A stretch of 64,000 nt of DNA, taken from NCBI RefSeq assembly GCF_027942865.1, contig NC_134510.1:20515209-20579208 (forward strand), read 5' to 3'. The first letter of the stretch is position 1. Each line of letters begins with the position of its first letter. This DNA comes from Odontesthes bonariensis (lineage: Eukaryota; Chordata; Actinopteri; Atheriniformes; Atherinopsidae). Both the position numbers and the translations under genes were made by a program. Below are positions 28,901 to 61,426 of the stretch, piece by piece. The notes under the pieces were generated by a model, which did no database searches, was not told the origin of the DNA, and worked only from the letters and a program-made list of their open reading frames with translations.

Positions 28901-30516
28901 GCCCAGAGTGGACAGCACCTGTGTATGCACAGGTATGGCTTGCGTGCGCTTAGTTTCGCGCTCGAGAAATGGCCCCAATTCACGGCAGAGGTCGAGCAAT
29001 ATATGTTTTGGAAATCTGAACCTGCTTACAAGCCACTCACTACTTTCTGCCAATAAATCTGCACGCTCCCTAAACACGCGCTCCCTCCGTAGCGCACGGT
29101 TTTCCAGATCCTCAAGCAATGCAAGATGGGCCATGTTGCGTTCTGAATGGCATGTCCTACGTGTGCCTTTTATACCCATATCAATTAAACTAGGCTGATT
29201 ATTGTCAGGTCTTCTGGTGAAACAATTATTGTTACACTCTGAATGAAATGCAATGAACGCCAGGTAGGTCTAATGCACCGTGCTTTGGAATTGCATAGGC
29301 TACACGGACCCAAATGCCGTCAGACATACTGTAATGCAACAACTGAATGAACATTGTAATATTCCCCTGTGCAGCGATCAACACCATTTGCAGTTTCGTA
29401 ATTCTACCACTAGGCAATGTGCGTAAGCATGGTCAAAGCTGTGCGTAGATTTAGGCACATTTCAAAGTTCAAGTACATGTTCATAAATCCCACACTTTGC
29501 TCAGGAATGATCGCACGGACGCTTTACGCACAGATCTGTTCCTAAGAACGCTTGATAAATGAGGGCCCTGGTGTCAAGATTTTCCTCTCCTCCTGCTTTT
29601 CCTGACAGAATCCCCGTCCATCAAAGTGAACATGGACATCTCACGCCCGAGCCCCTCTCCCACCCCCACCGAGGGCTCAGTGTTGGTGGAGACGACATTA
29701 AGTATGCGCTTTTATCTCCATCTGATTGGCTGATGTGACATTTCTCTACCAGCATTTGGGGATGTGTACAGGTTATATCAGTAAGAGCAATGTATTGTGT
29801 GTTGAGTGCATCATCTCTGTGAACTGCACATCTTCTTTAATTGTTCAGTCACTGAGACGTTTGAACTCCTGCAGGCTCCAGTCAGCCAGTGATAGTGGCA
29901 GTGGGAGTGGTCCTGGGGCTTCTAATGTGCGGGAGTTGTTTGTTAGCTGGAATCTGGTGGAAACGAAGGTACTGTACATCGACACATCGGTTGGAATGTT
30001 CTTTATTTGCCACTTCAAAGAATCATTGAACTTTGTGAATCGATGCTTGTCATAACTCCCCAAATACGAATAGACTCTCTTTAAAATGTCAAAGGGTTAT
30101 GCAAATCATCTTGTTTGGGTTCGATTGTGTAAATGAACAGAAAGTCTCATTAAAACAGGCTGACTGCTTTCCATTCAGTGAGTCGGCTAATCGCACCCAG
30201 AAGCCGCATTTCACATGGAAAATACCCTCACTGTGTGCTTTAATCTCCTCTGTATAGGAAAAAAGAGTCACAAATGAAGTACTCCATACCCACAGGTAAG
30301 ACGAGCCATGCAGGGTTTTTTTTAGGCACTTTCGTCATCCGTTGTTGCAAACTCTTGACTTTGACTCGTCTTTGTGTCGAGCAGATTGTCAGAGTTTTAA
30401 GGCCAAGTGTCCACAGTCAGAGCTCATCTCTTACCCGCTGGAGCGAAACGTCCACGATGCTCTACCGAGCCCCCCTCTCAACGGTGAGATGTGATGCATA
30501 TTTTATGTTGTTTGTT

Positions 30517-33977: not shown

Positions 33978-36032
33978 TCACTGATCATAAACCCCTTCTT
34001 CTGAGCTGAACTCTTTCCTTTTCCTCTGCCCCTCCTCCTCATCCTCTTCCTCCTCCCTCCCTTCATGGGAGTAGTGCTCCAGTGTCTGGTGTCTGTTCCT
34101 GGACGGGGCATCTTTAAAACGCAGGCCACAGTCCTCACATGCATACAGAAGCCCCCCTCTTTGACCGCCCGCTCCTGCTGCCTGAGATGCGCTCTCCTTT
34201 CCACCGAGCTGGGTGGAGCTACTATGAACGGCGGTCAAATCTGAAGGAAGTACAGAATTTAGCGCCGTGCGGGAATCGCTGCCTGGCCTGTTCCCAGCAG
34301 TTAGCCCAACAGCAGTCTGGGGCAAAGTCCTCGGGCGGCCAGGGGAACAACCCTCAGCTCCTGCCTCGCCGGTGTGTTCAGGAGCCAGCCCGTGGACGGT
34401 GCGATAGTGGAAGCGGATCCCGGAGCGGTTGGAAAAGCCCTTCCCACAGAGGCTGCAGGTAAAGGGCCTCTCACCTGTGTGGATGCGGGTGTGAATTTTA
34501 AGAGCTCCTGACTGGGTGAAGCACTTCCCACACTGGTTACAGCGGTAGGGCTTCTCTCCTGTGTGGGTCCTCTGGTGCGCCCGGACTCCCGCCAGATGTG
34601 GAAACCCCCTGCCGCAGAAGCCGCACGAGTACGGCCTTTCGCCCGTGTGAATCCGCCTGTGGATCTTCAGAGCGCCGGACTGGCTGAAGCTCTTCCCGCA
34701 ATCGGGGCAGCAGTAAGGCCGGGCACCTGTGTGCACGTTGAGGTGGATGCGGAGGTTGCTGTGAGAGTTAAAGGCCCGGCCGCACTCCGTGCAGAGGAAG
34801 CCAGACGGCTTGTGGGCGTGCTCGGAGCGCTGGTGCTGCAGCAGCTGCGAAGGCCTGGAGAAAGAGGCGGGGCAGTGCATGCAGGGATGCTGCGGCAGGA
34901 GGGCCCTGCCCCGTTCCTCTTGCTGCTGTGTGGGTCTGTGGCGGGGGTGGCACACCTGAGAACAGGTGGGAAGCGGGCACTGGCAGGACAAACAGGGAAG
35001 AGGACCAGAGAGTTGTGCAGAGTGGGCGAGCTGAGGACAGGGTAAACAAGACGTTAAAGGGCAGTGGTGGTGATGAAAATGATGATGGGCATGGGTGTGA
35101 GAGAAAGGAGGGTCTGTGCCTTCTTGCTGGCTCAGCAGCTGATTACAGGTTTGTAGGCCACGGTGGCAACAGAAGCAGGGAAACACGGAAAGATGGGACA
35201 TGGCGCCCAAAGACGCTCTGGAAGGAAGATCTTGGCTTCGAGTCCCTCCATCTGCATCCTCAGCCTGCGGTCGGTTGGACGGCCTGGACTCCAGCTCAGA
35301 TGTGGCGGCGCTGCGGCAGGGGACGGCGGTGTCCGGTGAGCACGTGCTGAGGTCTTTGGGCTGGCACGCTGCCTCAGAGCGCGGCGATGACGGCGAAGAC
35401 TGTCTGGGCAGCAAAGTTTCAAAAGATGGAGGGGGACTGGAGTACGGACAGCCGGGGCAGGAGCAGGCGTGATGCACGTCTAAACCGGAGGGACAAGTAG
35501 AAAACACATTTTAGGAAAAATAGAAAAAGAAAGAAAAGAAGCGAAAAGATCCATTTCCTAAATGCCAACCTTCTCTTCTGTCTTTGGCCTCTCCCTTCCT
35601 CTGTGATGGCCCAGGATGGACCTGTCTGCCCAGGGCTGTCCCCCCCTTGTTCTGGGCGGGTCCAGGCAGCTGGAGATGGGAAGTAGTTTTGAGTCCCAGG
35701 GAAGCGCCAGCACCCCCCCACGCTGCGTTCAGCACATCTGGCTGACTCTTAGATGGGTTTCCAGATGAGAGGAGGTCACCAATGAACTGATGCATCTCCA
35801 TCCAGGAGCACGGGGCATGCTGCGAGAGGTACATAAAGCATGAGTGTACAGGCCGCACGTGCTACACGAACACTGCCTGAAACTGAAGTCCAGGCTACTG
35901 ACAGCTGGCAACAAACTAAAGGGCTCGCGGCCTGAGCCGAGACCACCCACTCCTCTCAAAAAATGGACTGTAAATGTCAAGTGACAGCTAGCGGCTCTTA
36001 CTTACAATGTCGCCACCTTTGTCTTTGTCCAT
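33978..36032 (-). CDS. C2H2 zinc-finger protein, 592 aa, 7 fingers, 3 coding exons
   Basis: Exons 36006-36032, 35570-35819 and 33978-35479 join in phases 0 and 1, giving 592 aa that start MDKDKGGDI. Exon 2 is Gly/Pro/Ser-rich with [15 protein letters not shown]. The last exon begins with a Cys/Pro/Ser-rich part and a histidine run ([12 protein letters not shown]). Six C2H2 fingers follow: CMHC..H, CTEC..H, CPDC..H, CGFC..H, CNQC..H and CSLC..H. Fingers 2-6 are joined by TGARPY/TGERPY/TGEKPY linkers typical of DNA-binding arrays. A separate seventh finger ([17 protein letters not shown]) precedes an acidic-basic tail ([15 protein letters not shown]). No KRAB, SCAN or BTB domain is visible. Role: presumed nuclear DNA-binding transcription factor. 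The orthologue was not recognised. It is convergent with dcbld1, with about 600 bp between them. Confidence 0.88.
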
Positions 36033-38479: not shown

Positions 38480-41400
38480 TCAAACTTCCTTTTTAATGTC
38501 CTTCTCTGGCCCGCAGTCGGTCAGCTGGATGGACGCGGGTGACGGTGCATCCGAATCAGGCCCAGGGGAGTCAGGCTCGTTCTTTATATGCGATGCGAGT
38601 CCAGGGGACGCTGTGTTAGCCACGGGGTCAGTTTCAAATCGCTTCGCCTCGCTGCGCGCGTACGTCTCTCCTGCATCCGTTTTAATAATCTCTTCACGGC
38701 TTCTGTGCTTTTGAGCTTCTTGTGGTTCCGTACCATTGGCCTGTCCTGAGGCTTCAAAATCTACTGGCTCGCTTTTAATAGGAACGTCGGACACCTCCGA
38801 CTTGGAGGGGTTACATTTCTTAGACAAATCTAAAGGTGCCACAGTGTCCCCCTTAACCCCTGTTAACAACTGCAGGGGAGGGTGCAGCGACGCTCCTAAA
38901 GCACCTTTCACGCCGAGCAGTTCATTATTTGACGCCGGCGAGAGAGATGCTTGAGGCAGAGGTTGCACAGCAGCAACTGGCAGAGTCTGAGGGACAGCAG
39001 ACACAAGCCCGTTAGTTTGAGTTGGACAGACGGGAAGAAACAAGACGAGGTTCATGCCGGGAGGCGGCTCTTTATCCAGAGTTAGACTCCATAACCCATC
39101 TGACGGAGCAGAGCCCGCAGGATCACGCCCTGCCACAAGTCCGGGACTACGGGAATCCTTCTCCGATGCAGCGGGGTTGTTCAAAACAACGCCAGGTACC
39201 TTGAATGTGCTGGAAATATTTGTTGAGTCTGGTTTTGCTCGCTTTTTCAGAGTTTGCTCGGGCAGAGAGCTCTTCAAGGTCTTGCGCCTCTTGGGAACAC
39301 TCTGAAAAGGCAAAAACAAGAAAGAAACATCCCAGTCAGTCAACTTGGAATACAAAACAAAAGCGAGACGTGCAAATATGCGGAAAGACTCAAAGAAACG
39401 GGGGAATACGTTCACTCATTCTTGAGACATTTTTCCTCATTATGAGGTAACGCATTTGACCGCCCCTGCTAGCAAAGACGGAAACAGCGGAGAGGATACA
39501 ATTTTTCAGAAACCAGTATTCTAAAAGAAACCCGTTTACTGTGGAATGTGTGTGACGACAGAAATAAGGAAGAAGGTTTAACATTAGTAACACGTCTATA
39601 GCAGAGTCCTTTCGATATTTGCTGTGTAGCGCTGTTTAAATATGCATCAGTGTATTTCTTCAACAGACAACAGACACCAGTGTGGGTTACTTATAATTTT
39701 GATAAATCAACAACACTCTCAGTGTGCAATAAGGCCAAAGAGTCAGGAGTCGGAGAGCCGGTGCTGAGCAGTTGCAGCCAGGCCAGAGTTGGTCACATTT
39801 GGCTTTGGTTTGGTGTTATTCAGCATAAACAGACTAAGTTTTTAAGTGTGTGATCGTTGCCTGGAAAGAAAATTTAAGATGTTCTGCAAACATAAACCTG
39901 GACGATGGCTCTAACACTTTGTGCAAGTTCCATGTTGGGGATAACAATCCAAACCACAACATCGATTTGCATGTAACAGAAACCACCGGCAAAAGGATTC
40001 CATGAACTTTGTTCTTTGCTTCCGTGTCGTTCTGCAAACCAGGCAGTGGCAACGCAAAGTAAAAACACTTCAAACACTCGTACTCACCACAGACTGGGAG
40101 GGCTGTCCACAGGTCTTGAGGTGGCCGTCGTAGTTCTGCTGGTGGGGGAAACCCAGTCCACAGGTCTGACAAAAGCAGGGCGACTTGCCGGCATGACCGC
40201 CCATGTGGGACATTAACAGCAAGGCCGACCGAAACCCCTTTCCACATTCAGCACATTTCAGCACCCTCTGGTGAGCGCCGGCGTGCTTCTTCAGCTCTTC
40301 TGAAGTGTCGAACCTCTGGCCGCACTCCAAACATCGGATCTCGTCCTTTCTCTGGTTCGGCTCCTGATTCCCCCAGCAGCCCGTGTCCTTTTTGTGCTGC
40401 TGGAAGTCCTCCTGACTGAGAAACTCCCGGAGACACGCCACGCAGTGAATGCGCTGGGGTTCGCACTTGTGTTGGCGGTACAGCTTAGCCAGGCGGAAGT
40501 GGCAGCGGCAGCGTACGCACGTGTAAGGCAACAAGCCGAGATGCGAGAAGCTGTGCTTCAGGAGAGCGTTCTTCTTGGTAAAGGTCTTTGTGCAGTCTGT
40601 GCATTTAAAGTTGCGAAGGCACCTCTTCTTCCTGTGGCGCGCGAGGGACTTTTCGGAGGGAAAATTGCGGCCGCACACGTCACACACAATGTTCACCATA
40701 CATTTGTGCAGCTGCACGTGGGCTTCGCACTCCTTCAGCGAGGTGAACACGCGTTTGCACAGGTCACACTCGTAAAACAGGTCCTCAAAGTGAGTTCTTG
40801 ACAGGTGGCGCTTCAGATGCTCCTGTGAGCCGAAGCCAGTCAGGCAGATGCGACACCAGTGGCGCTCCACTTTGATCTTGGCGTGCGTGCGCAGGTGGAC
40901 GCGGTAGTTGTAGATCTGGCAGAAGCGCTTCCCACATTCCGCGCAGCAGTACGGGCGTGCTCCCGTGTGCAGGTTCATGTGGTCTTGGAGCTTGAATTTG
41001 GAGGGCAGCTGGAGATCGCAGACACTGCAGCGGAAGTCGCCCGAGTTACTCGTTTCTGAAGAAAACGTTGAGAGGAAAGTGTGCCGGTTAATGGACGGAT
41101 TGTGGGAGAAAGTTTATAAGAGTTGGAATCTAACAACCGTAATCGTTATACTTGCTGTATCGAACTAACAGTCTAAATGCCTGCAGCGCCTTAACAGTTT
41201 TAAAAGGTGCGGCAGGTGTTAAACAAAAAACACCTGTTAAAAACAGGTTTTTAGATACTTTTTTAATCCCTACATTCAGCCTTCAAGCCATTTGTTCCAA
41301 CACAATAGTAAATCTTTACAATCAGGTCACAAATACACACTTTGATTCAAAGTATGACTGAGGTATATCTTTCAAACTATTTTGGAAGTAGGGCCTATTT

Positions 41401-45249: not shown

Positions 45250-48012
45250 TTATCTCTTTGCGTTTGGGTTTTCAGGCTTTTCCTCGGGGTGGCTTTTTTG
45301 GTGAGCTTTCAAGGTGCGCTCGCGACCAAAGCTCTTCCCGCAGGTCAGGCAGGAAAACCGACCAACCGCGTGAGCCCGCGACATGTGGGCATCCAGCTGC
45401 TCGGGACGGGCAAAGCTCTCCTCGCATTCTTCACATGGATGAGCTTTCCGTGGCGCGTGTTTCTCCTTCTTGTGAGCGCGGAGCTGAACCAAACTGGGAA
45501 AGGCGAGGTCACACTCAGGACAAGGGTGCTGACGAGGCGGAACCGGGTCCGCTTTAGGCTTCTTCTCCTTTCCTGGAGCTTGACTTTCGTCTCCAGAGCT
45601 TTTTTTATCTTCCGTTTCTGGTTTCGGCGCCACTTTAGAAGGACGGCCGCGCTTGGCGCCGCCCACTTTTCCCTTTTCTTCTGCCGGGGTCGCTGCTGGC
45701 TCTGACGTGCTGCTGGCCTTCACTGCCTCCTCGGACACCTCTCCCTCATCCTTCTTTTTTCGCTTTCCCTTTTTCTCACCACCCACTGGCTCTTCGGTTT
45801 TGGAAGGCCGCCCACGTTTCTTCAAAGGCGAGGCGCTGCCGTTGCACTGTTGACCTTCAGGGTACTTCTCCTGGTGCGCTAGCAGCTCCGATTCATCTTC
45901 AAATCCCTGACCACACTTCTTACAGTGGTGGGTTTTAGTGGCGTCCTCCGCTTGCTCTGCAGTGTCTACATCTGGGCGGGGATGCTGGGTCAGGCGGTGA
46001 GCACGCAGCAGTCCAGCACTACGGAAGGTTTCATTGCAATCTTTACATACCATCTGTCTTTCTGGACACACCTGTCGTCTATGGGCCGTGAGCTACAAAG
46101 GTGAGATGACAAAAACAAAAACAGTAAGCACAAACCATAACCTGCGCGATATTCAAAGCTGGAAGTTTTTTTGGCAGCGTTAATAAGGTTTAATACGGCT
46201 CATGAGTTGTATCAAAAATACAAAATATAATCACCTCAGAGAAGGTCTTAAAGCTCTCCTTGCAGTGAACACATTTGAAAGGCTTGTCATCCTTGCTGTG
46301 CGTTGGCTGGTGCTGTGTCAATTCCTCAGACGACAGAAACGTGCGGTCGCACACGTAGCACGTAAACAGTGTGTTTCCCTGCGAGAAAACCAGACTTGAA
46401 TCACAAAGGAGAGGCTACATGCGGCAGCACGTTTTCGAGTTATAGGAAATAAGAAAGACTGTGCCTCAAATCTACTCCACACACATTACTGGGAAAACAT
46501 GGGTGCCGTTCACATAATAGTTTAACAGTATTTTCAAGCTTGAATTAAAAGAGAGAAGAAGCCCTGCGTCTTTGAAGTCAAACGACTCTGCATTAACATG
46601 TTGAGTTGAACACGACTGGTCAAACTGTGCTCATAACAACATTTAAATACAAGTTAACTTCACAAAAGGGCAACTGACGGCTCTTTATTACCACAGCTTC
46701 TACGCAACTCATCACGTTATTGGTTAAAGGGGAACTCCGGGGCATTTGAAGCGTGTTTCCATTGCTAGAGGTTGTCAAATAATGATAGTATGACACAGAG
46801 AGGTGCGTATCTGCGCTCCCTGTGTGAAGATCGCTCTGTCCGCACAGCCTGTCATGCGAGGCTAATACGTGGTGGCTAAGGGGCAAGCGCTAACCCTTCC
46901 ACGTAAAACAACAACTTGCACACTGCAGAAACGTCACACCACTTTATAACCCATCCGACAATAAAGTCACAAGCCTTACCATCAAAACCATATGCATGGT
47001 TCTCACATTACTGGCATGGGGACGTTACAAAACAACTTTATAAACAGCATGTCACTCACCGGCTGGTTGTAGGCTCGCGCATGTGAAAGCCCAAAAGAGT
47101 CGATGGAGAATAATCCCATATACAAAACAATTATCTTCTCTAGAAAAACTGCGTTCAAGTATTTAAAACATTACAACAATACTTGCCCAGTAATATTCTT
47201 GTAATGTTTTAAATACTTGAACGCAGTTTTTCTAGAGAAGATAATTGTTTTGTATATGGGATTATTCTCCATCGACTCTTTTGGGCTTTCACATGCGCGA
47301 GCCTACAACCAGCCGGTGAGTGACATGCTGTTTATAAAGTTGTTTTGTAACGTCCCCATGCCAGTAATGTGAGAACCATGCATATGGTTTTGATGGTAAG
47401 GCTTGTGACTTTATTGTCGGATGGGTTATAAAGTGGTGTGACGTTTCTGCAGTGTGCAAGTTGTTGTTTTACGTGGAAGGGTTAGCGCTTGCCCCTTAGC
47501 CACCACGTATTAGCCTCGCATGACATGCTGTGCGGACAGAGCGATCTTCACACAGGGAGCGCAGATACGCACCTCTCTGTGTCATACTATCATTATTTGA
47601 CAACCTCTAGCAATGGAAACACGCTTCAAATGCCCCGGAGTTCCCCTTTAACTGGTTGTTGTGAGATGTACCTGCTGAAGCTGTTGTTTATATTCCTCCC
47701 GGTGGCTCTTCTTCATGTGCCTCTCCTTGGCTTTGGCGCTGCAGAACGTGATGAAACACTGGAAACACTGCAGGTTTTCATGCTGGTCTGAAAGATCGCA
47801 GAGAGACACGGTTACAGTTTTGCCCATTTCAGCGCTGAGCTGAGCTCGTGATATCTGTACCACTCACAGGATTGGACAGGAGGTGCCGGAGGTCCATTCA
47901 AAGTGATGGGTTTGTACGGTTCCGCTGGCTTTTCAGGGGGAGCTTCAGGGGGTGGATCTGGCAAGCCCCGTCCCATCACTATCTCCTCTATGTTCAAAAT
48001 TTCAGAGTCCAT
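45250..48012 (-). CDS. ZNF576-like C2H2 zinc-finger protein with AT-hook-like motifs, 415 aa
   Basis: Exons 47868-48012, 47672-47787, 46235-46378 and 45250-46092 join in phases 1, 0 and 0 (415 aa). It starts MDSEILNIEEIVMGRG, followed by a proline-rich stretch. The first two fingers (CFQCFITFCSAKAKERH, CYVCDRTFLSSEELTQH) closely resemble human ZNF576 (ITFADSKFQERHM, RSFPSSKALITHQ). They also resemble the gene at 52133-61426. Three more fingers follow, the third (CKKCGQGFEDESELLAH) lacking a clear final His. A lysine-rich linker then carries two RGRPSK motifs (AT-hook type, KKRGRPSK and AKRGRPSK), and three C-terminal fingers end HPEEKPENPNAKR. Likely a nuclear DNA- or chromatin-binding protein. 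Intron 2 contains a 920-bp foldback element. Zebrafish znf576-type genes are the probable relatives; exact orthology is unresolved. Confidence 0.88.
46728..47647. mobile_element. 920-bp near-perfect palindromic (foldback) element flanked by TTAA
   Basis: Left arm 46728-47176 and right arm 47199-47647 are both 449 bp and reverse-complementary, with a 22-bp spacer. By eye I found one mismatch (46849 against 47526). The ends AGGGGAACTCCGG...CCGGAGTTCCCCT are bordered by TTAA at 46724-46727 and 47648-47651, as for piggyBac or Kolobok-type targets. There is no transposase frame; the duplicated short frames in the arms are mirror images. It lies in intron 2 of the 415-aa zinc-finger gene, and its right end is 24 bp from the exon-2 donor. 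A transcript would fold into a very long hairpin. Confidence 0.92.
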
Positions 48013-48739
48013 CCCGCGATACTGGGTGCCCTAAGCAGGCTAAAACTGTCCCAAGATTGAAAAAAATAAATAAATAAAACCAGACAGGAATAATGGGTAA
48101 ACAAAGTACTAAATATCACGTGGAAATAACACCAATTTGGTTCACTGCGGGAAACGCAACAAAATCAGTGATGTAAACATTAGTATATAACAAATGACAG
48201 CGTATAAAAATCCATAATGTTAAACAGAGGTTCGGTAACTCTAAATAACTAATTGCAGAAGCTAAAACGTATATAATCTAAGAGTTGTTTAACAATTTAC
48301 CACGACATCAACTTAAGTTTTAGTTCAAGCTATCGTTAAACATCACACTAGGGCCCGCCAGCTAAGCTAACTAGCTCACTGCAAATCTATATGTACCAGA
48401 TATTAAGGTGCCTGCGTAAAATGCCCTAACGAATGTAGCTGATCAACTGAAAAAGCGCAGTTGCCAGCTATATTCGCTTGAGTTTTGTGTCTATGCACGT
48501 AGCTAACGCTAATAACAAAGTACCAGGCGACTTAAGCGGGCTAACGTTAGCTAGCTTCCCACTAGTTAGCGCTAACAACACTCTGCCATTCAGAGGACCG
48601 CAGACTTCATGCTTGTTCTCATGCTGAGTTTAAACTAATTATTCAGCGCGTACATACATCTGCCGAGAATCTATATGAAGCACGTCACATTCATATATAT
48701 TGCAAACATTTGAATAACGATATGAAATTGAGCAGACGT

Positions 48740-48900
48740 TACCTCTAACCGCTCTTTCAGGGTAGTTTGACTGAGAGAGTGACCCTAGAAGTACATTCAA
48801 TAGATCGTACACTTCCTGGTGTGCTGTTGTGATTGGTACAACTAAGATGGCTGCCGCGGACTTTTCGAATGAAAACTTTGAAAAAAAAAAATTCAAAATA
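48740..48900 (-). promoter_or_regulatory. Probable 5' UTR exon and promoter of the 415-aa zinc-finger gene
   Basis: On the minus strand GGTTAGAG|gtaacg (about 48748) is a plausible donor for a non-coding first exon, about 740 bp upstream of the start codon. AAGATGGCTGCC at 48844-48855 matches the YY1-type motif commonly found around vertebrate housekeeping-type starts. Confidence 0.4.
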
Positions 48901-51900
48901 AAATGTCAGACACAGGTCATTTAAAGTTTACTGGCGTTGATAAAGGGTATCGCTCTGTATCGTAGAGAATATTACTCTCGTAAAAAAAAAATAAAGCACA
49001 TGACGCCAACGGCTCTACAAGTATAACAGTTGCAAATTTTGTTTTTTTTTCTTTCAAACAATATTAATGTTTTCTATTGAATTATAGAATAAGCTGTAGT
49101 GAACACAATGCGCATTTTCCTGTTCAAACAAAGATTTGAACCATAGACCGTACAACTAACTAATCTGCTTTTCTATGCAGCACGATTCTATAGCAGACCT
49201 TCGTCACGTGACCAAAGAGAAGTTGGCCAAAAGGAACTTGAAATTTTCTTCCAGTGTACCGACGCACAATATTGGTATTGTGGCCGATTTGCAAGTCGTT
49301 CACATCCTCTGTTGAGCTGGACGTTTTATAAGAAGGGTGCTGAACTTTGACCCTGATAAATGTTATTGTCGTTCAAAAGGCTCATTTTAAATTTGAAGCC
49401 ATCAATATTCAAAATAGAGCAACACCAAAAAAGTAGAAAAAAAAGGCATCAAAACACAGGAAGGGGTATTTAACCAAACAAATGAATGTAAACAGGTTAA
49501 TAAAGAGGTTCATTTGCAACATGTCAGATATTTTCTATAAAAAAAAAGTTTCCCCTCTGAGAAGTCCCTCTAAGGACTACAGAGCTCCGCCACTTTGAGA
49601 AAGACAGGATGAGGAGGTGGTTCGGTGTATGGATGATGTTTCTGAATGCAAAATCAAACATAATTTGGGTATTTGATAACCTATCAAATGTACGATACAA
49701 TATTCTTGAGGCATTAAGAGAGTCAGAGTAATCTCTGCAAACACACCCAAGAAAAACAAGGTTGGAAACCTGTACTGAGGGACAATGATCTTTGGGCCCT
49801 CAAGTGAAACCGCATTTAAAACGTGGTATCTGTAGGTGCCGGGACTCGACTGCATCCACAAATGCAAGTTAAAACTACTTTGCAAAGAAAAAAAAAAACA
49901 AATATGAAAGATAACTAGAAATGCTGCCATGTTCTCTGTGCATGAAACCTTTTAAAAATGGTTTCAGGTGAAGCGGTGACTATCAGCTATTCATGGAGTC
50001 ATGCTGCATAGAAAAGCTCATGAGTTGTTTTACATCTATCAATGAAAAACCAAACAATTAAAACTGTCCTTTTGTTCTCGACAGCTTTTACATATTAGTG
50101 GAACATATTAATGGGTAATATTAAGAAAACACGATTTTGTTACCGTTATAACTGTACTGGCGACATGTGCTTAATTTTTCTGTAAGGGTTACTCTACTAC
50201 GCTATAAAGCAGTGCCCTGTAAAAACATCAGTAAAGTTTACATGATCTGGATCTGACTTTGACAGTGTGGGGATGTGTCAGTTTCTATGGAACTGGCATT
50301 CCAACTGATAGGTATGTAAGCAACATTTACTCCCATCCAGATGCCCTTTCCATGGAAGGCCTTGCACATTTCAGCAAAACAATGCGACAGCGAAGAGCCC
50401 AGGCGCTGGAATGGAACCGCTTGCAGTCCAGACCTTTCGTCAACTGAAAAAATTTGCCGCATCACGAAACGTAATATTGGCCGGAGAAAAACCCAGGACT
50501 GTTGAGCAGTTAGAATCCTACATCAGACAAGAATGGGACAACAGCCTCCTCAGGTCCCAGATGTTTACAGACTGTTGGTAAAAGAAGAGTTAACGCCACG
50601 GAGTGGTAAACGTGACGCCGTCCCACCTTTTCTGAGACATGTCGCTGCTATCAAATTCAAGATGAGCCATTATTTTTTCCACAACGTACACGTCTCTCTC
50701 AACATTTGGTGTCTTATCTATGTTCTACTGGTGATGCAAGTCATTGCGTTCTGTTTTTATTGACATTTCGCAGTGTTCCAACCCCTGAAATGGGGTTCAA
50801 CATACCAAGACAAATTCCTTGTATGTTTTAACTCAACTGGCAATATAAGTAATGTAGTAGTGCATGCTAAAGCTATAGTTGTAGCATGTTTGTAACATTC
50901 ATCACATTAGTACAGTATCACTACAACAGTTGGTCAGTGTTACTTTCTTTTTTTTAATATTGTGAGATGATCAAATTGATCTTTTTCATGGAAAACATTT
51001 TGACACCATAGCGTAAATAATAAGACCGTACACACAATGGCATTACAGCGTCATGGCTTACAGGGACACTTGAACACAGCAGTACCATCGCTTTTATTAG
51101 TGACACATTTGACATGTCAAACAGCTGTGAAAAGGTGCAGCTTTAAAGCACGGTTGGAAAATAAAATAAAATCAGTAATGCAGGTTTTTTTTTGTTGTCG
51201 TCTGTTTTATTGTTTTGTGGAATCAGAATAAATAGAGTTGAAATTCATGGAACTAAAAATAAGCTCATCATGGAATGTAAACTAGAAAAGGTTAAGAAAA
51301 AAACCGTCTCCCTTTCCATAACAAATTACTTTAAACAAAAGCTGAATGACTTCGGAAGCCACATCACGAAGCGTTTGTCCCGTTTGAACTGCAGTGCTAC
51401 GAAAAATATGCCACTGCCATTTAAAGGCATTATGGGGAAAAAAAAAAACAATAAATAATTGGTCAGTCACAACATTAACAACACTGACAGGAAAATGAGG
51501 AACACTGTTCAGCAATGTGCGGCGGAAACCTGGCATTCATATGGACCCTACTAAATATTTTCAGATCAGTCACACCCACCTCCCCAGTGCCAGCAGCACC
51601 ACCCTAACAGTAACATCCTAACACTGCTGAACCGTGACAGGACCAGCGAAAACTGCTTTGGAAGAGCCCAAAGTCTGAGGTAGTCAAGCCCACAAAGACC
51701 CCACCGCAAAACCCACAGGGCCAACAGGATCTGTTGCGAACAGCCCACTACCACACACTCCAGGACACCCTCAGGTGTTCCTTGTCTACAACCTAACTGG
51801 TCCGAGCTCTTGGCAAAATGAGGGCAATGAAATGAAAAAGTAATTTAATTATCCCCAAAGGGAAATCATATTGTTGTTGTATTATTTTTTCCTGTTATCA

Positions 51901-52132
51901 ATCATCACAAGCTGTCGTTATAAATAGTTATTTCTGCTGGCAGGTAGGACCATCTGTATCTTTCTTTATTGACACTGTTGTTTCGATGCATTATAGTTCT
52001 TTATGCTAACCAACTTGTTAACGTATCGTTATCTACTGTTATACTAGGAGGGCGGTCATAATGGCTGTTCGGTGGAAACCATACAAAACGATATTGAAAG
52101 AAAAAAAAAAAAAGCAAGGTAAGTATGAAACA
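48900..52132. other. Intergenic region with a mariner-like relic
   Basis: A TCACGTGAC palindrome at 49204-49212 may belong to the upstream region of the 415-aa gene. 50240-50790 is a transposon relic, listed separately. The remainder is AT-rich with no exon recognised. About 51960-52132 is probably the 3' UTR of the fusion gene, with TTTATT (AATAAA on the minus strand) near 51963. Confidence 0.45.
50240..50790 (+). mobile_element. Mariner/Tc1-superfamily transposase relic, C-terminal part
   Basis: Fragments ALEWNRLQSRPF (family VLNWPACSPDLSP), then EKPRTVEQLESYIRQEWDN and a 3' end reading ATTCTGTTTTTATTGAC...GGGGTTC, match a very common teleost DNA transposon of this class. Frameshifts and stops break the frame. 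A second remnant of the same family is at about 60490-60815. Confidence 0.75.
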
Positions 52133-55100
52133 CTATTCCTTTCCTAAACTCCCTTGATTATGAAAATTCAAAAAGCAGTTGTGGTTGCGTGAGATACAAA
52201 GAAAGACGCAGCACTTGAGGCAGAGCACTCGGGACGTTCTCTGACAGTCCCCAAAACGACACCTGCCCCCTTCCCCCTCCGCAAGCTGTTCCGGCCAGTG
52301 GCCTGAGCCATCGTACCGTATGGTCGCATCCGGCAGAGGACTCTCCTCAACCAGGACGGGATTTGGAGTTTCCCTCCTTACACAAGCCTTCTCTGAGGGG
52401 GGCTGAGGGGGAACAGAGTCCTGAGTGTCCGAGCCGCTCGAAAGTATCAAAGCCTTGGACACCTCCAATCTGAAGGCCATGAGAGTCAAAGGGGCTGACG
52501 CTGATGCGTGATCCGAACGGTATACGAGCCAGGAGTTCACCAAAGCCACATCTGTGAGGTACCAGAGCACGGCTTGCGGCCAGCAGGTTGGTGCAGAGGC
52601 TGTGAGGGGGATAGAGTACAGATTTTGCAAATCTCTGCTGAGGCGAGCCGACGTCTGGGCTTTCTCAAAGCTGTCTATGAGAGAGCCTATGATCCTCTGG
52701 CTGTTCCCCGCAGTGGAAAGTATGAAACCACAGTGTGATCTGCGCAACATCAGCTTCCCATCGGAGCTCACAAACTCATCTCCGATCTGTCCTCGTGCTC
52801 CTCCCACCCTGCCTGCGCCGTGAACCCCAGCGGCTAAAAGGCGTTCCAGCATCGCCGGGGTGGACAGTTCCTGTTTGCAAAGAAACACCATACTGCCTTT
52901 GGGGACCATCTTTTCTACGGCGTCTTCTTTGTCTGAGAGATCCAGTTTCAGATCCACATGCGAGAGTAAACCATCAAACCCTATCAAAGAAGTGCAGAGG
53001 AGAGATGGTTTGTTGTCGTGAGTCTTCCCAGTCAGTGGAAGAAGATACTGGTCAATGGCATAATCGCCCTGTCGTCTCAGCGGCTGGCACCCCGTGTTGA
53101 AACGACCCAATAATGGCTGAACCTTCCACAGAGGACCAGCCTGTGTTTTGGAACCTTTTTCCCTGGCAAATTGGCACTGCCCGTCACTGCGCTGAGAAAT
53201 TACTCCTTGACTGCTTGGACACGTTTTAACTTCCTGTTGGCTGTTTAAATTACTACTGGCTGGATCTTTTGAAGGAGAAGTCAGCTTCAACGTGCGAGAC
53301 AGCTCAAGGAATCGGCTCAGTGGCATGGCCTCGGCAATCAATGGCACCTTAGTCAAATCCTCCCAATAGAGCCTTGGACTGGGAAACTAAAAAAAAAAAA
53401 AAAAACACACCACATAAATTCAAACAGTTTGTGGTCTTGCATTGGACTTATAGACAGTGATTCATATCAGCAATCAATTCAGCAGGAATACAGACCTTCA
53501 AAGTTCCCATTGCAATGTGGATCCCGACAAAGCGTGCAACCTCTCTGGATGTGACAGGATTTGACTCCTTGGGATGTTCATTGGTGCAAGTGGCAATTTC
53601 TAACCAGGTATCCCAGCCAAAATATTTGGAGAAGTAATCAATGGGCTCTCTGGTCCCGTTTTCATCCCTTGGTGCTTGATGTTGACTAGTTGAAGGTGGC
53701 AAGCTACGCAAGACAAAAGAAAAATCACAAGAAAAAGAGTTGAATTAGTCCATCTGTGACTCCGCGAGTGCCTCTTTCACCATTAACCGTCTCAATTGTT
53801 TCTGCACAGTATGAATGCATCACTGAATTTGAACAAAACACTTGGAAGAATCTTATTCTTGTTTCATAGTGTTGTGCTCAGTTAACGCTGCTAGTTTTAC
53901 TGTACTTTGGTGATGTTCGATCTGACTGTTGTGCGCTGCTGGACTGGTTCTTGCTGAAGTAGGCCAGTATTCCTGCCTCCGTGTCAAGCTGTGGCTCAGA
54001 CAATTCAAAAGGACTCGTATCTTCTTCATCAGAACTCTGGAGGACAAAGTCTTGCAGGTCTGATGGGTGCTGCCACTCAGAGTCCGACATGGCTGAAAGA
54101 CCAATCAGTAATATTTTAATAAAGAGCTTAAAAAACCAACTATAATAGCTGCAAATTGTAAAAAGATATACCGACCTTGTCCGTCAGCAAAGTCCCCTGG
54201 TTCTGACAGGAGACCTCTAACTTCAGTCTCCTGATAGTCTGGTGGGGAATGTCTTCCTTCACCTTCTTCAAAACAAGATCAACATCAAAATAAAGCTTTC
54301 CTGGAATATAAAATTGAAATGTGGTAGAGACGGTGACTCACGTGCATCATGACCTGCAGTCTGATGTCCTGTCTGATATGCATCATCGGGTCCGTCCGAG
54401 GGCGAGCTCCTTCTGTTGTTCTGAGGAGCCCCCAGCAGGACCTCCCTCTCCTCCTCCTTCACCGGGTAAAAGATACACTGGCTGCTGTTGAACTCTGGGG
54501 AGACGCGACAGTCCCCCGTTGTCTCCTCAGTCTCCGTTACTGTAAACAGATTCAAAACATGACCAACCACATAGGCTCCAAATCATTTGATGATTGTAAA
54601 TGTTCTAGCTCGTGGAAAACATGTTAAATTTCTAGAAATCGAGAGTTAAACAACCAGGCTTTGCTTTTGGAGTGTGAGCTGGGAGGACACAAGGGTCTAC
54701 CATCACAGAAATGCTATTACTAAATGCCAAAAATGTAAAACCTAACATATTGAGAAACAAGAGGAAAACATTTACTGAAGTATGTTATCCGTTAACTGAA
54801 CAAAGACATCCCTCTGATCCACAATTACACCATAAAGCGAACACCATCGACAATGTTTTACCATAGTTCTTTATAATCCATCAAATTTGGGAAAATGGGC
54901 TCTTGACTACTCACACGGGGTGTCCGTGTTCTCATTGCCGACTGGCTCCACATTCCATTGCATGCGTTTGCGGCCTTGCGTGACCTGAGCGTCGTTCTGC
55001 ATCGGGCTGCTTTCTTCTTTCACCAGAACGGTCCTTATATCTCGATGATGCTGTGGCTGCACACTCGCACTCTGTCTGCTCTGGCAGGCGGGTGCGACCA

Positions 55101-58100
55101 GCAGGGGATCCGAGGTGTTCTCTTCAACCTTGATCTCCTGGCCCCCAAGACATTGCACTTCTTCATCAGCAATTCTGTCCAAACCCTGGAGCAAAAAGAA
55201 ATGTAATATTTCCACATCTGGATGTACTGTCAGTGTATGGTTTTTGATGGCACAAGCAGCACCTCACCTGTCTTTGATTGTTCCACGCTGTCATCAAGCA
55301 TGTGTCCTTGTCAGCAGTCACTCTTTGCCTGGAGGTAAGGAACCTCTCCAGGATGATGCCTGGAGACTGGTCAGCCTCCCTATCATTTTCCTTTCCTTCC
55401 TGCAGTCCTCCGTCTTTCATCACTTCCTCAACACTAGTGGTAAGTGTCTGCAGTTCAAACACAACTGGCTCTTCATGGCGTTCCTCTAATGTGGAAGGAA
55501 TGGAAGGCAAAGGTGCAACGGGATCTTTAAAGTCAGGACTGGCTGGTGTCTTTGTGCCACTCTCAGGGTCAGGAATTTCTGAGGAGAGGGGGTGTTTTTC
55601 ATAAACTAGCTGACATTCGTCCTGTCCGTTCTCTGGTTCTGTACTTCTGAGAGATTCTCCAACTGAATTAGTCTTCGATGTTGCATCACTTTTGAGACCA
55701 GCTGTTCCTCTTCTCCTACGTCGTGCAGCACTCCTGATAACAACTCCCTTCCCTCCACTTTTTCTCTTTTGGACAAACATTTCTTCCTCCTCTTCTTTGA
55801 CCTCCACTTGATGAGTGGAACACGACACATTTTGAGAGGCTAGACAATTTTCAGTCGTCTCAACATTGACTCGTTCAGGGTGCTTATCGGTGCTTCCACT
55901 CGCAGAATCGCAGCTGCCATCCAACTCGTTTTGGGAAACGGTGTCTGCATGCGAAACTGGCTCATCTTTCTCATTCGGCTCCCCAACAGTGACCAAATCC
56001 ACCTCGAGGAGTAAATTCTCCTTAACGTCCTCATCTGTGGTAGCCTGGACTTCAGATTCTGAGCTGGGATTCTTGGTGGCGTCCTCTCCTCCTTTGTCTT
56101 CATCCGATGCCAAACGCTCTCCTGTCCCGGAACTCTTTGTCTGAGTGGTCGTAGGCAAAGGGCTTTCCCTGGCGACATCTGCTCGAGTCTCGCAACTTTT
56201 CATTTCAAGAGATGGTGAGTGAACTTCAGTAGATTTGTGAGACTCATCGCATGCCCTTGTTTTACTTCCACCCATATCCTTGTCAGCACTCATTTCAACA
56301 TCTTGAGGAGGAACTGGTAAAGATGGAGATGGAATCAAAGCTGGGAAAGAGACACTCTGCTCCCTCTCCTCTAAAGCCATCTCGACCAGCTCAGGCTCTG
56401 TATCCCAGTCTGTCGCAGCATTCATCACCCCAACTACTTTATCGTGCACTTTTGGAAGCTGGTACAGATCTAACCTTGAGACGCCCTCAAAGACGTTCCC
56501 ATTGGTGTACGTGAGACTAGGACTTTCAACAATGTGTGCGGTCGTCTTGTGCTTTTGAAGGGACGAGACTTCACCAAATTTCTCCCCACAGTCCTTACAC
56601 TGTAAGGCCCGCTTGGAAGTTATAACGCCCTCGGTCTCCACTCTCAAGGAGGCTTTGCGCTTCCTGGAGGTCTTTGGCTTGGTGGGCAGCGCTTCAGGTG
56701 GCCGATGGGAAACCTGCAAGGAGGACAACAGGGAAAGAGCTTTCTGGCTCTTCTTCGCTCTTCCACCTTTTTTCCCACCTTCTGCTGTGAGATTATCTGT
56801 GGACTCACTTGTACTCTGATAAGACGGTGTTTGGGACTCTTGAGGAGAAGTCTCAGGTGTCTGCCCGGATGCCGTTGAAGGGTCCAACTTGTAGACTTTC
56901 AGCTGGGGCTGTTTGTGACCTTTCAGTAGAAGCAGAGCATCTTCTGTTATGTGTGAACCAGGCGAATTTGCCTTTTTAGGCGTGTCCTCTGTTGCCAGGT
57001 TTTTCTTTCCCTTCCCATCCTTTGGACTCCTGGGTTGATCCTTCCGCAGTTTTTTGGCTTGTTTTTTCTTTTTAAACATGGGCGGACCTACGGTATTGTG
57101 CTCACTTCTATGTGCCACACCTGCCTTGGCTACTTTCTGCTTTTTCATTTTATTTTTACCTTTATCTTCTTTGACTCGTTGCACCTGTGGGACCTCAGAC
57201 GAAGGAGATTTCCTGTCAGCTCCCGACACCACGCCCCCGCCAGCCCTGTCCTTTTTCCCCTTTCCTCCTTTCTGTGATGGCACGTTTTTTCCGGAGAGTT
57301 TTTTTGGCGATGTCTTACTGTCCTGCTTCTGCGTTGGCTTCTTCTGTTTCTTGCTTTTCTTTTCTTTGTTTTGTGGACCAAATTTAACAACAAGATGAGC
57401 CTTTTTGGTTCTTTGGCGTTTGGCAGGTTTGGCATTGCTCTGAAAGTCATCCGTGTATATGGATCCAACCAGATCTTGCATATATCCTTGAAAAATAAAC
57501 GTCCTGGCTGGTTTTCTTTTCCTCACTTTCACCAGCTCTTGAGCCGACATTACATTTATGGACAACTCTGAGTTCTGGGGCACCTCTTTAGTCGGTAATT
57601 GTAACAAAGCCTCTTCTTTAGCAGGTTGGTTCTCCACTTCAGAAAGATTTTTCTTGCCATCTATCGGCTCAGATATCTCCTGTTCAGCCAGCTCCTGTGT
57701 TTTCTCATCCACCTCAGGCGCCTGATCTGGACCTACTGTTTTCATATGTGAAACCACGTCTTCTTTGGAATTATTACCCGGAGCCTGTGTGAGTGCGTCT
57801 GGTGGAACAACGGGGCAAGAAGAAAGATCCTGTTCTTCTGGGTGTAAAGATGTCAGCTCCAGCTCAACTATGGACATCAGCGATGGGACTGACAGGCTGG
57901 TTTCTCGCTCATCTACAACTGTCTGATCTGCAACCTGATCAGGAGTCGCTTGGTCAGTGTTCAGTACCGAAGAGGAGGAAGGCATTTCATTTTGTGGTTC
58001 AGTTTGGGATTTCTCCAGCTCCACAGTTGGTATCAAAGCAGGGGTGAGTTCTAATATGACTGTTTGCTCAAGGTTTTCCTTGAGATTATCAACCTCACTG

Positions 58101-61100
58101 TGACAAACCATGGGATCACAGTGAACTGCACTGATCTCAGACTGCTGAAGGATCTGATGCAGCACCTCTCCTTCAGGTCTCTCCGTCTGTTCAGCCTCAA
58201 CTATGCTTAGTTCTATATTTTCACCTGCCGCTATGTGGGATCCCAGTTCTGAGAAGGATGGGTTTTCTAGCTGTCCATCTGGAGTTATAGGTTCCAATAT
58301 AATTGTTTGCTCCATTGGATCACATGGGTTGTTTAAAGGGTCCAGTTCGGCCGTCTTCGATTCCGACTGTTTCAGCCCTATAAAATCTATCTGTGGTGGA
58401 CTTAGATTAAAAGTCATTGGATTGGCCAGATGTGATACCTGCTGCAATTCCAGTGGTGGGGCATGAGGAGGCACACGCCCCAATATAACAACTTGGTTCA
58501 CTTTCTGCACATTCCCCAGTGACTCAATAAGTCTGCGAATCTGCTCAGTGTCAATATTTGCATCCACTCTTTGCAGGGGTCCGTTGTTTTCCAATTGTAA
58601 GAGTGCTGTTTGAGAAATGGAAATTGGAGTTATGATGGGTGTACCTTGTTTCACCTGCTGCTCGATTGGGAGAGCATGACTGGCTCCAGGCGGTGGCGCG
58701 TTGTGCTTGGTTTTCATGTGATGCAACCGGCTCTTGGAGCTCTTGAAAGTGACATTGCATAAAGAGCAGGGATACTTTATTGTAGAGGCACCTTAAGACA
58801 AAAAAGGAGGAAAGCTGTGATGCCCAGTGGTATACAACAAAAACAGAGTCTTTTATCATGCCCACCTTTATTTACTAGCTCCCAACACAACAAAACCAGC
58901 AGAAGTTGTAAGGAATATCAGAAGTTTTGTACGTTTTTTTTTATTATACATTTTTCCTTTAAACCAGTCAATGTGGCTCTGGACAGCAAAAACTAATATT
59001 TACCCACGTAAGGATTTTACCATGTGCAGTGACAAGACATTTTCCTTACCATTGTTTTTCTTTAGCTGTGCCTCCTTGCGTCTTTCGGCTCCCTCTGGCA
59101 GGTGCTGCAACGTGTGTTTTTGCAGAGCTTTGGACATGGTGAACCTCTTTCCACACTCCTTGCAAATGTACGGCCTCTCTCCTGTGTGCGTGCGCTGGTG
59201 ATACTTCAACAACGTCAGGGTTTTGCAAGCTTTGCCACATTCAGCGCAGCCATAACCGTTCTGGCCAAAGTGACTCTTTTTATGTGCGGTGAGCTCTGAC
59301 GACTTCTTGAAGGACTGACTGCAGACTGGACACTTGAAGGGCTTCTTCTCTGTGTGGGCCTTCTGGTGGGCCATGAGGTCTATGGAGTTTGTAAAGTGGC
59401 GGTCACAAACGTAACAAGCAAAAAGGGCATTCCTCAGTATGCACTGTTCATATTGCGCTGGGTGGCTCAGCTTCAAATGACGCTCTTTGCTCTTGTGATC
59501 ACTGAAGATAATGTGGCACTCTTTGCACTGCAGAGAGAGCTGAGATGCTGCAGGAAAACACGAGAGAGGAGATGGTAAATGTTTACATGTGGTATCATCG
59601 GACAGAGGAGAACACCGGCATATAAAACACATGAGGACGTCTGGGCAGGAGAGACCCACTCGCCTCTGCTGCTTAAGGCGGCATGCATTTACTGTTACAC
59701 ACGAGGGATCAAAAATGACAAACGCGTAACGACTGTCCTCTTACAGTGTGACAGAGCTTTGGAGATTCTGTCCTTCTATGACACTGATCTTCTGAACCAG
59801 TAACAATTCTAATGAATGAATTCATTCCAATGAATAAATCATGAACTCGCATTATTAATCAAAAACACCAAGTAGATTTATAAAGGTGTAACATGCCGTT
59901 TCCCAAAAAGCGGGACGCTTGAATTTAATTCAAAACTGAATACATGCAACTGACTTAAAAACTATGACACCGAAATTGCTAGAAAAATAACACAGAGAAT
60001 AATGACACTGAAATGTTTTCGTGTAAAACACATGGTAAAAGTTTCTCAAATTGTCTCTCAAATTTCAAAGAATTTCTAGATTTTTAAATCACCGACGCAA
60101 CACAACACTAAAATATCCAAAGAATCTGGATTAATCTATCTGCACAGATGACGAGGACAAAATCCAAAACTAAAAAGGCTGCGATCTTTATCCGCTGCGT
60201 TAGAAACAGAAACGTATGTTCACAGGAACACTTCTGAAAATCCTCGTCGCTGAGCACGGGGAAAAAAAAGAAGATTTAGAAGGATCGTTTCCATCCCAGG
60301 GTGCAATACCACTTAAGATGGACTGAGGTTGCCTGGGGAACTGCTCTGTCTTCTGACACCTCAAAATTCGAAATGATTTTTGGAAATCATTGGCCGCCAT
60401 GTTCTCTGGGCAAAAAGAGCGGTTGGACCACCTTGCCCGTTGTCAGCACAAAGTTAAAAATCCAGCATCAGTGCTAAAAATCAGTACACGTGGCGTGGGT
60501 AACAATTATATTTGCAGGTTTTGGAGGAACACGCTGCCATCGGGTCAGGATCGTGTGCAGGCCACACAAAAGGTGAGCCGTTTCTTAAGTGGCCTGCCTG
60601 AAATCCAGGTTTATAAGCACTGTTAAAAGCAGATGGTGGCGATACAAAAGAGGAAGAAGGTTCCAAAATCTTTTGGAATGAAAAAAAATTCAAAGTAAGC
60701 AAATATTTAACAAAAACGTTTCTCAGTGTCAACATTTGAAATGTTGTCTCTGTGTTGTTTTCAGTTAGATTGTGGGGTTTAAAGGATTTGCAAATATCTG
60801 CATTGTTTTTCAGAAGTGGAGCTGTGTAGCACAGAACCTCCAAACAAGTAAATGCTACTTAAGGCGCTGCCATGTTGGTAATGAGTGTGTGCCAGTATAT
60901 TTGTATTAAGCCTCTCAAACCAAGCCTGGTCTGACAGCTGTATGACAAAACGTACATGCAACGTGAAATACTTACACGTCAGAGGAATAACGTACGGCTT
61001 GGACATATCAATCTTCAGAGGATCTAACATGGCTTTCTTGGAAGGAACGTATTTCCTTCCGTCGCCTTTTTCCTGCTTCTTTGCTTTCTGTCCATCACAT

Positions 61101-61426
61101 TCAGGTTTTGCATCGGCATCAGGAACAGATTCTGCGGGGACACCTGGCTTTGCAGCAAGGTCCCAGTCCATCTCCCCAGTGTTTTCACAGGACTCGGCCT
61201 GCGACTGAACTCCAGACTCACTCTCTGCTGATGCTGGGACCGCCATGCTCGCAGGTGTCTCTGGTGCATTTCTGCTTTCCGTCTCAGCGGGAGCAGTTGA
61301 TCTGCTCTCCCTGTCATGTGCATCTGGCTGGCTTTGCGCTGGCTCAGCCGCAGTGTTCAGTTGTTGCTCTGAGGTTGATGTGGTCGCAGGGTTTGGTTCA
61401 GTGTGCGCCTGGGTCTGACTCTGCAT
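52133..61426 (-). CDS. Zinc-finger/piggyBac transposase fusion gene, 2226 aa, 9 coding exons
   Basis: Exons: 60976-61426, 59050-59547, 55268-58791, 54915-55185, 54342-54539, 54176-54265, 53906-54092, 53496-53703 and 52133-53386. Every junction is GT-AG and in phase. Residues 1-150 are disordered, with DPLKIDMSKPYVIPLT. Five C2H2 fingers lie at about 155-300 and a sixth (CSLC) at about 322; the seventh (CKDCGEKFGEVSSLQKH) is deep in a long disordered, Lys- and Glu-rich exon. Exons 4-6 are acidic linkers. MSDSEWQHPSDLQDF in exon 7 looks like an ancestral transposase start. Exons 8-9 are a piggyBac (DDE_Tnp_1_7) domain: YFGWDTWLEIATCTNE, PLSRFLELSRTLKL, YAIDQYLLPLTGK, WPQAVLWYLTDVALVNSWLV, then a Cys/His tail (CRFGDC..CLKCCVFLC..H..CFLNFH). 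The second catalytic Asp is replaced (CKQEL for CDNWF), so it is probably not an active transposase. Start: the first in-frame ATG after the acceptor near 61470. No orthologue was recognised. Confidence 0.82.
60490..60815 (+). mobile_element. Internally deleted mariner-like relic in intron 1 of the fusion gene
   Basis: The stretch TTTTGGAGGAACACGCTGCC, then further along TCAACATTTGAAATGTTGTC and GGATTTGCAAATATCTGCATT, follow the order of the common teleost element also seen at 50240-50790, with most of the transposase region missing. Confidence 0.65.

Follow-up and report, generated by a model that had tools for sequence, protein, structure and literature searches.

Candidate capture of a piggyBac transposase as 3' exons by a C2H2 zinc-finger gene in the fish Odontesthes bonariensis

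Has a zinc-finger gene of the fish Odontesthes bonariensis captured a piggyBac transposase as its own 3' end? The question is raised by a locus on contig C6 (NC_134510.1) of the assembly GCF_027942865.1 (945 Mb), where an earlier note, made from the sequence of the 64,000-nucleotide stretch C6:20515209-20579208 (called the window below), had described nine exons that join C2H2 zinc fingers to a piggyBac domain and had dated this fusion to after the duplication of a neighbouring finger gene. Our analysis bore out the architecture in one open frame, the piggyBac identity and the paralogy of the neighbour, but not the dating. In our view a C2H2 host gene has probably taken over a piggyBac transposase to form its 3' exons, and the result is probably a catalytically dead fusion serving as a DNA-binding regulator.

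As a check of the gene model we enumerated the GT/AG combinations at the listed sites, starting at the ATG at 61426. This gave nine minus-strand exons from 61426 to 52133 with intron phases 1,1,0,1,1,1,2,0 and one frame of 2226 residues, so that the proposed exon structure was recovered exactly (Table 1). The acceptor of exon 6 allows two further variants that keep the frame, leading to models of 2225 and 2223 residues. Judged by the enumeration, Pfam and the codon score described below, host-derived and transposase-derived coding sequence share one open frame over compatible introns.

The piggyBac identity of exons 7–9 was first of all visible in Pfam, where they match DDE_Tnp_1_7 (PF13843) with E=4.8e-21 and 75.9 bits, the match being limited to profile positions 2–141 of 349. 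A profile-profile comparison (hhalign) with 26 piggyBac open reading frames (ORFs) of the same genome extended over residues 58–541 of 549 at a probability of 99.9 and 25% identity; the fusion had been part of the alignment that supplied the columns of the 26-ORF profile, and its row was taken out afterwards. Given this span, the description of the part as a complete-length piggyBac is correct as to extent, but its catalytic centre is destroyed. With exons 7–9 alone, a phmmer search of the PDB returned no piggyBac and just two chance matches. A profile of the fusion and 11 genomic relatives matched T. ni piggyBac 6x67 (E=3e-85) and piggyBat 9c0f (E=1.3e-91) near full length, a signal that probably comes mostly from the 11 relatives. 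By homology, exons 7–9 are a true, nearly full-length relative of piggyBac.

At least 116 piggyBac matches were counted genome-wide. A second copy of exons 7–9 was not found in the 945-Mb genome by a search in which only the best candidates were scored, the other matches at E≤0.001 being partial and 25–47% identical. Relatives of exon 9 were not found in viral contigs or prokaryote genomes, as expected of a fish gene. The reference loci used for comparison were hand-picked from longer match lists for long frames and diversity and are not a random sample. Seven of the 12 loci of the first alignment gave ORFs (L025, L026, L027, L030 and L031 gave none); after 20 loci had been added, one alignment took 15 of 27 (motif filter) and the main one 26 of 27, L064 being left out for want of a 400-aa ORF. 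A tree with 27 rows places the fusion with the families L024 and L032 (support 99/94), a placement that carries a long-branch warning; the fusion's branch measures 2.5, and the median end branch 0.31. As a separate observation, several contigs (e.g. L001-L008, L060, L062) hold many piggyBac matches in long stop-free frames, with some copies nearly identical, and the equal match scores together with the short tree branches suggest that several piggyBac families were recently active.

The loss of two catalytic aspartates is the main sign of which kind of domestication this is, a point that the earlier note did not contain. The catalytic residues of T. ni piggyBac are given as D268, D346 and D447 (PMC7351741). 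At these columns the fusion carries D, K and R in three alignments, whereas the transposon ORFs carry D in 24/26, 26/26 and 26/26, and the fusion therefore lacks the DDD triad of an active piggyBac transposase. Where 85% or more of the 26 ORFs agree on a column, the fusion retains 9/23 such columns in the core and 14/15 outside, namely 5/6 ahead of the core and 9/9 behind it (Fisher p=0.0017 for core against outside); individual piggyBac ORFs retain 18–23 of the same 23 core columns. Compared with nine nearer relatives, retention was 13/46 in the core and 34/42 outside (p=6.9e-07). This contrast was repeated in 18 settings, which combined three alignments with two reference sets and three thresholds. 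Its direction was the same in all 18, and p did not exceed 0.0017 in 15 of them.

Behind the core, the upstream His and the C-C, C-C, C, C, H series of the C-terminal domain are retained as a sequence pattern, and 5 of 5 scored Cys/His columns of this cysteine-rich domain are kept. The pattern corresponds to a variant arrangement discussed for PiggyMac (PMC8086355). Several points weigh against a selective loss of the core with a DNA-binding tail left behind. At the 95% threshold with all 26 ORFs as reference (3 of the 18 settings), the core contrast loses significance (p=0.13–0.15), two of the three alignments gave identical counts, and the borders of the core were chosen after the alignment had been viewed. 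Moreover, the PiggyMac cysteine-rich domain is described as not binding DNA (PMC8086355), and we therefore only infer DNA binding for the tail of the fusion.

Do the finger half and the piggyBac half form one gene? We regard this as likely, if unproven, on the basis of the phases, the coding signal, the donor of intron 3 and the spacing of poly(A) signals; one transcript would then span all nine exons by way of the 82-nt intron 3. Scored by general donor frequencies, the donor of this intron (CAG/GTGAGG) ranks at the 99.9th percentile among the 1204 GTs that the minus strand holds from 44 to 64 kb; the acceptor, with 16/20 pyrimidines, ranks at the 98th percentile among 1417 AGs. With exon 3 and the neighbouring gene as training set (an earlier version had been trained on exons 1–3), a codon model scored 7 of 8 non-training exons best of six in the frame of the gene model, including exons 4, 5, 7, 8 and 9, and 8 of 8 introns negative in three frames. 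Between 57154 and 54120 the minus strand holds neither AATAAA nor ATTAAA, and hence none lies in the kilobase past 55166, where exon 3 runs into a stop codon if it is read unspliced; an AATAAA follows 163 nt beyond the fused stop.

Several observations at the junction and in the 3' exons weigh against a single gene. Exon 6 is not best in the model frame (0.377 against 0.419 in another), the coding score of exon 8 is close to zero (0.013), and Pfam and the genome search gave no homologue that links exons 4–6 to either half. The donor of exon 7 (AAA/GTACAG) is weak, at the 68.7th percentile, and the alternative GT that was tried there breaks the frame, while the donors of exons 6 and 8 carry C at +3. 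A shorter transcript could end at an ATTAAA in intron 6 (54120), and the splice acceptor lies two bases upstream of the exon-7 ATG (MSDSEW), a possible independent start. In favour of the fusion, however, this acceptor has a precedent in human PGBD3, where a splice acceptor just 5' of the ORF is reported to be spliced to CSB exons (PMC3459987). The CpG content is low before exons 4–7 (0.17–0.72), yet it is also low at the start of the gene (0.48), and it was dropped as promoter evidence, since a CpG peak is missing there too.

A rival reading is that of two separate genes, a finger gene ending in or soon after exon 3 and a domesticated piggyBac gene starting from exon 4 or from the exon-7 ATG with its own promoter. 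The start of exon 7 just ahead of an ATG, the stop in unspliced exon 3 and the ATTAAA in intron 6 would all suit this arrangement, and a solitary transposase made from a cryptic promoter is described for the human PGBD3 locus (PMC3459987). On the other side, the strong acceptor of exon 4 calls for an upstream exon and the top-ranked donor of exon 3 lies 82 nt away, neither poly(A) hexamer is found for more than 1 kb past the stop in exon 3, and the intron phases match. We regard two genes as unlikely. A slightly smaller chance is given to alternative products of one locus, namely a finger-only isoform, the fusion as a minor product and perhaps a solitary transposase-derived protein. This is a live rival because the CSB locus is reported to make three products from a comparable layout (PMC3459987), and retention of the 82-nt intron would lead straight to the stop at 55166. 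It is opposed by the lack of AATAAA or ATTAAA where the short isoform would need one; in addition, a search with the fused protein found no finger-like stretch in 48012-52133, so that, unlike at CSB, no further finger exon is seen past the transposase.

If the piggyBac part belongs to a spliced fusion gene, is it under domestication or simply decaying? In a simulation of neutral decay, the last 417 codons of a relative were degraded by substitutions only down to 37% identity in 400 runs. The mean number of stops was then 13.3, and the frame stayed open in none of the runs (0/400); the frame of the fusion is open. Intron 8 splits GTLK/FPSP within the core, and the protein aligns there unbroken. 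The same site is continuous in 26/26 piggyBac ORFs, which were picked for long frames, and also in 6/6 of the loci that had been left out of the alignments for lack of a usable long ORF. DNA transposons of vertebrates are described as having no introns, and introns as a recurrent and not obligatory feature of domesticated genes (PMC3257199); the introns in the piggyBac part therefore count as gains after domestication. None of 16 pairs of inverted repeats in 51000-55000 flanks exons 7–9. Features by which domesticated piggyBac genes are recognised are thus found together here: homology to DDE_Tnp_1_7, no second copy found, no flanking inverted repeats, and introns. As two Asp and many core columns are lost, the core holds an intron and the frame is open, the piggyBac part looks domesticated rather than a remnant.

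A dead remnant that is open and in frame with the neighbouring gene by chance is strongly disfavoured and in our view very improbable. With so many piggyBac matches in the genome, insertions near genes are to be expected, but the simulated decay closed every frame, an intron lies inside the core, no inverted-repeat pair flanks exons 7–9 and the loss is concentrated in the catalytic core. That the locus is a still mobile piggyBac element carrying host fingers can practically be discarded, as many genomic piggyBac matches do sit in long stop-free frames but this one has no second copy found, has lost two of three catalytic Asp, lacks flanking inverted repeats and has introns. We also rejected the idea that the fingers were brought along by the transposon: none of eight piggyBac ORFs from the genome, of which six have long frames and two are the nearest relatives, carries a host domain (Pfam E≤0.01).

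What is fused to the piggyBac part was described before as an array of seven fingers. Seven C2H2 motifs (C-x2-4-C-x12-H-x3-5-H) are indeed present, at aa 158, 195, 223, 251, 279, 325 and 1048, but they do not form one array, as five lie in exon 2 and are followed by the ones at aa 325 and aa 1048, the seventh being isolated about 700 residues after the others. Exon 2 matches zf-C2H2 in Pfam with E=6.2e-23. Exon 1 gave no Pfam match at E≤0.05, exon 3 no other Pfam domain over the cut-off besides its fingers, and exon 4 no Pfam domain over the cut-off. SCAN and KRAB domains were absent upstream of the piggyBac part (Pfam, E≤0.05 for exons 1 and 2 and E≤1 for exon 3 and exons 4–6). In the genome search the last 453 aa of exon 3 had no match elsewhere at E≤0.1 save one weak finger hit (E=0.03), exons 4 and 5 had no other matches at E≤1, and a second copy of exons 4–7 was not found. 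The VKEE-like motifs of the acidic linker are presumably of the SUMO type.

Table 1: Features of the fusion gene and its neighbour, with positions counted from the first letter of the window.
Feature	Position	Strand	Description
Exon 1	60976..61426	-	Holds the start codon; N-terminal aa 1-150, without Pfam match
Exon 2	59050..59547	-	aa 158-299 with five C2H2 fingers (by arithmetic about 59527-59102); Pfam and motif list
Exon 3, 3524 nt	55268..58791	-	Sixth finger at aa 325, isolated seventh at aa 1048; donor CAG/GTGAGG
Intron 3, 82 nt	55186..55267	-	Junction between finger half and transposase half
Exon 4	54915..55185	-	Acidic linker, VKEE-type motifs; model frame has the best coding score of the six
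Exon 5	54342..54539	-	Acidic linker; in-frame coding score best of six
Exon 6	54176..54265	-	Linker; frame-keeping acceptors at 54265, 54262, 54256
Exon 7	53906..54092	-	Transposase part, acidic N-terminal region; donor AAA/GTACAG
Exon 8	53496..53703	-	piggyBac core begins; Pfam PF13843 and alignment to transposases
Exon 9	52133..53386	-	Remaining piggyBac core and C-terminal cysteine-rich domain, through stop codon
First catalytic Asp, kept	53051..53053	-	Model aa 1921; position by arithmetic
Second catalytic Asp column, Lys	52874..52876	-	Model aa 1980
Third catalytic Asp column (GGVD motif), Arg	52643..52645	-	Model aa 2057
C-terminal cysteine-rich domain, Cys/His series retained	52160..52303	-	aa 2171-2218
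AATAAA, presumed poly(A) signal	51965..51970	-	163 nt past fused stop codon
Tandem paralogue with 4 exons and 415 aa; has C2H2 fingers but lacks a piggyBac part	45250..48012	-	

When did the fusion arise relative to the duplication of its neighbour? The finger-only neighbour that had been described (48012-45250) is present, with 4 exons, 415 aa and no piggyBac part, and its finger region is 38% identical to that of the fusion over 182 aa (E=2e-30). The first intron is in phase 1 in both genes. By sequence, the neighbour is a genuine paralogue and looks old; its fingers had been labelled as ZNF576-type, a name that we take as a label only. It lacks the long exon 3 of the fusion as well as the piggyBac part, and differs from it also by two further introns. 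A second copy of its finger block lies on contig C23 and is 61–62% identical to the neighbour. In two finger blocks the neighbour and the C23 copy share 24/31 and 30/48 residues, the neighbour and the fusion 16/31 and 27/47, and the fusion and the C23 copy 19/31 and 22/47. As the neighbour is closer to the C23 copy than to the fusion, the few residues compared suggest that the tandem split preceded the C6/C23 duplication. A homologue of the piggyBac part or of the tail of exon 3 was absent from 9.6 kb around the C23 copy. That the fusion arose after the tandem duplication is not established by these data, and loss of the 3' part by the neighbour is equally possible.

Some further features of this surrounding may be mentioned. 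The second intron of the neighbour contains a perfect inverted repeat (46723-47652) with two 459-nt arms that are 100% complementary, a 12-nt spacer and TTAA one base inside the outer ends, possibly a palindromic element of very recent origin or else an artefact of assembly. Two more same-strand C2H2 stretches at 33978-35510 (7 zf-C2H2 matches) and 40070-41113 (8) make the region look like a small finger-gene cluster. On the minus strand, 28541-29269 holds a transposase fragment matching DDE_Tnp_4 (E=6.5e-08), which we take to be Harbinger-like. At the C23 copy (L071, C23:16203400-16213000), a same-strand upstream ORF matches Complex1_51K (E=2.2e-08) and is presumably NDUFV1.

Host-transposase fusions as such are already known. 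Close in layout is human CSB-PGBD3, in which, as in the fusion described here, host N-terminal exons are spliced to a piggyBac transposase 3' end and the product binds DNA and acts on transcription (PMC3459987). In contrast to the fusion, its host part is an N-terminal piece of CSB and not a set of C2H2 fingers. PGBD3 is moreover described as an intronic insertion past which full-length CSB continues, with a transposase called intact (PMC3459987), whereas the piggyBac part of the fusion ends the gene, has introns and carries a broken triad. The PGBD1 group likewise combines a domesticated piggyBac with N-terminal transcription-factor domains, and no detectable transposase activity is reported for it (PMC6015446). 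The added domains there are SCAN and KRAB (PMC9499001), neither of which was found in the fusion. From the transposases of T. ni piggyBac 6x67 and piggyBat 9c0f the fusion differs by the loss of the catalytic centre and the lack of flanking repeats. The host-transposase fusion survey of Cosby et al. 2021, described as covering tetrapod evolution (PMC12062965), deals with the same kind of event, in which transposase sequence comes to be joined to host regulatory domains. One section of a piggyBac protein analysis mentions additions of SCAN and KRAB and a C-terminal zinc ribbon, not C2H2 arrays (PMC9499001). No fish C2H2-piggyBac gene is named in the titles and abstract starts of the open-licence literature searched, and within that literature the C2H2-piggyBac architecture was not found.

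How might such a protein work? In the capture that we favour, a host C2H2 zinc-finger gene would have taken a piggyBac transposase as 3' exons, and the piggyBac part would then have lost catalysis, gained introns and been kept as a second DNA-binding, possibly dimerising module. The product would be a nuclear protein that binds DNA by its fingers and by the dimerisation/DNA-binding and cysteine-rich domains of the transposase, domains that are described to touch the transposon ends in piggyBac (PMC7351741, PMC8086355). Fingers and transposase tail might both select sites, possibly at relics of the ancestral transposon, and the long acidic linker with its VKEE motifs may recruit partners that alter transcription. 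The protein would then act like human CSB-PGBD3 or PGBD1 and not as a transposase; for the domesticated fusion CSB-PGBD3 an action on transcription is reported (PMC3459987). Only tentatively do we go one step further and propose a fish factor with two DNA-reading modules that could bridge finger sites and former-transposon relics in order to regulate host genes, and that might represent a C2H2-piggyBac class outside the surveyed tetrapods with a core remodelled from cutting to binding or dimerisation.

The capture of transposases has been proposed as a general way in which vertebrates gain new transcription factors, and the survey that we found covers tetrapods (PMC12062965). A fish case in which the zinc-binding tail is kept and the cutting centre is lost would be a testable example of what selection retains after capture. 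As the genome of O. bonariensis holds many open-frame piggyBac elements, it might be possible to compare the binding of the captured protein to its living and dead relatives directly.

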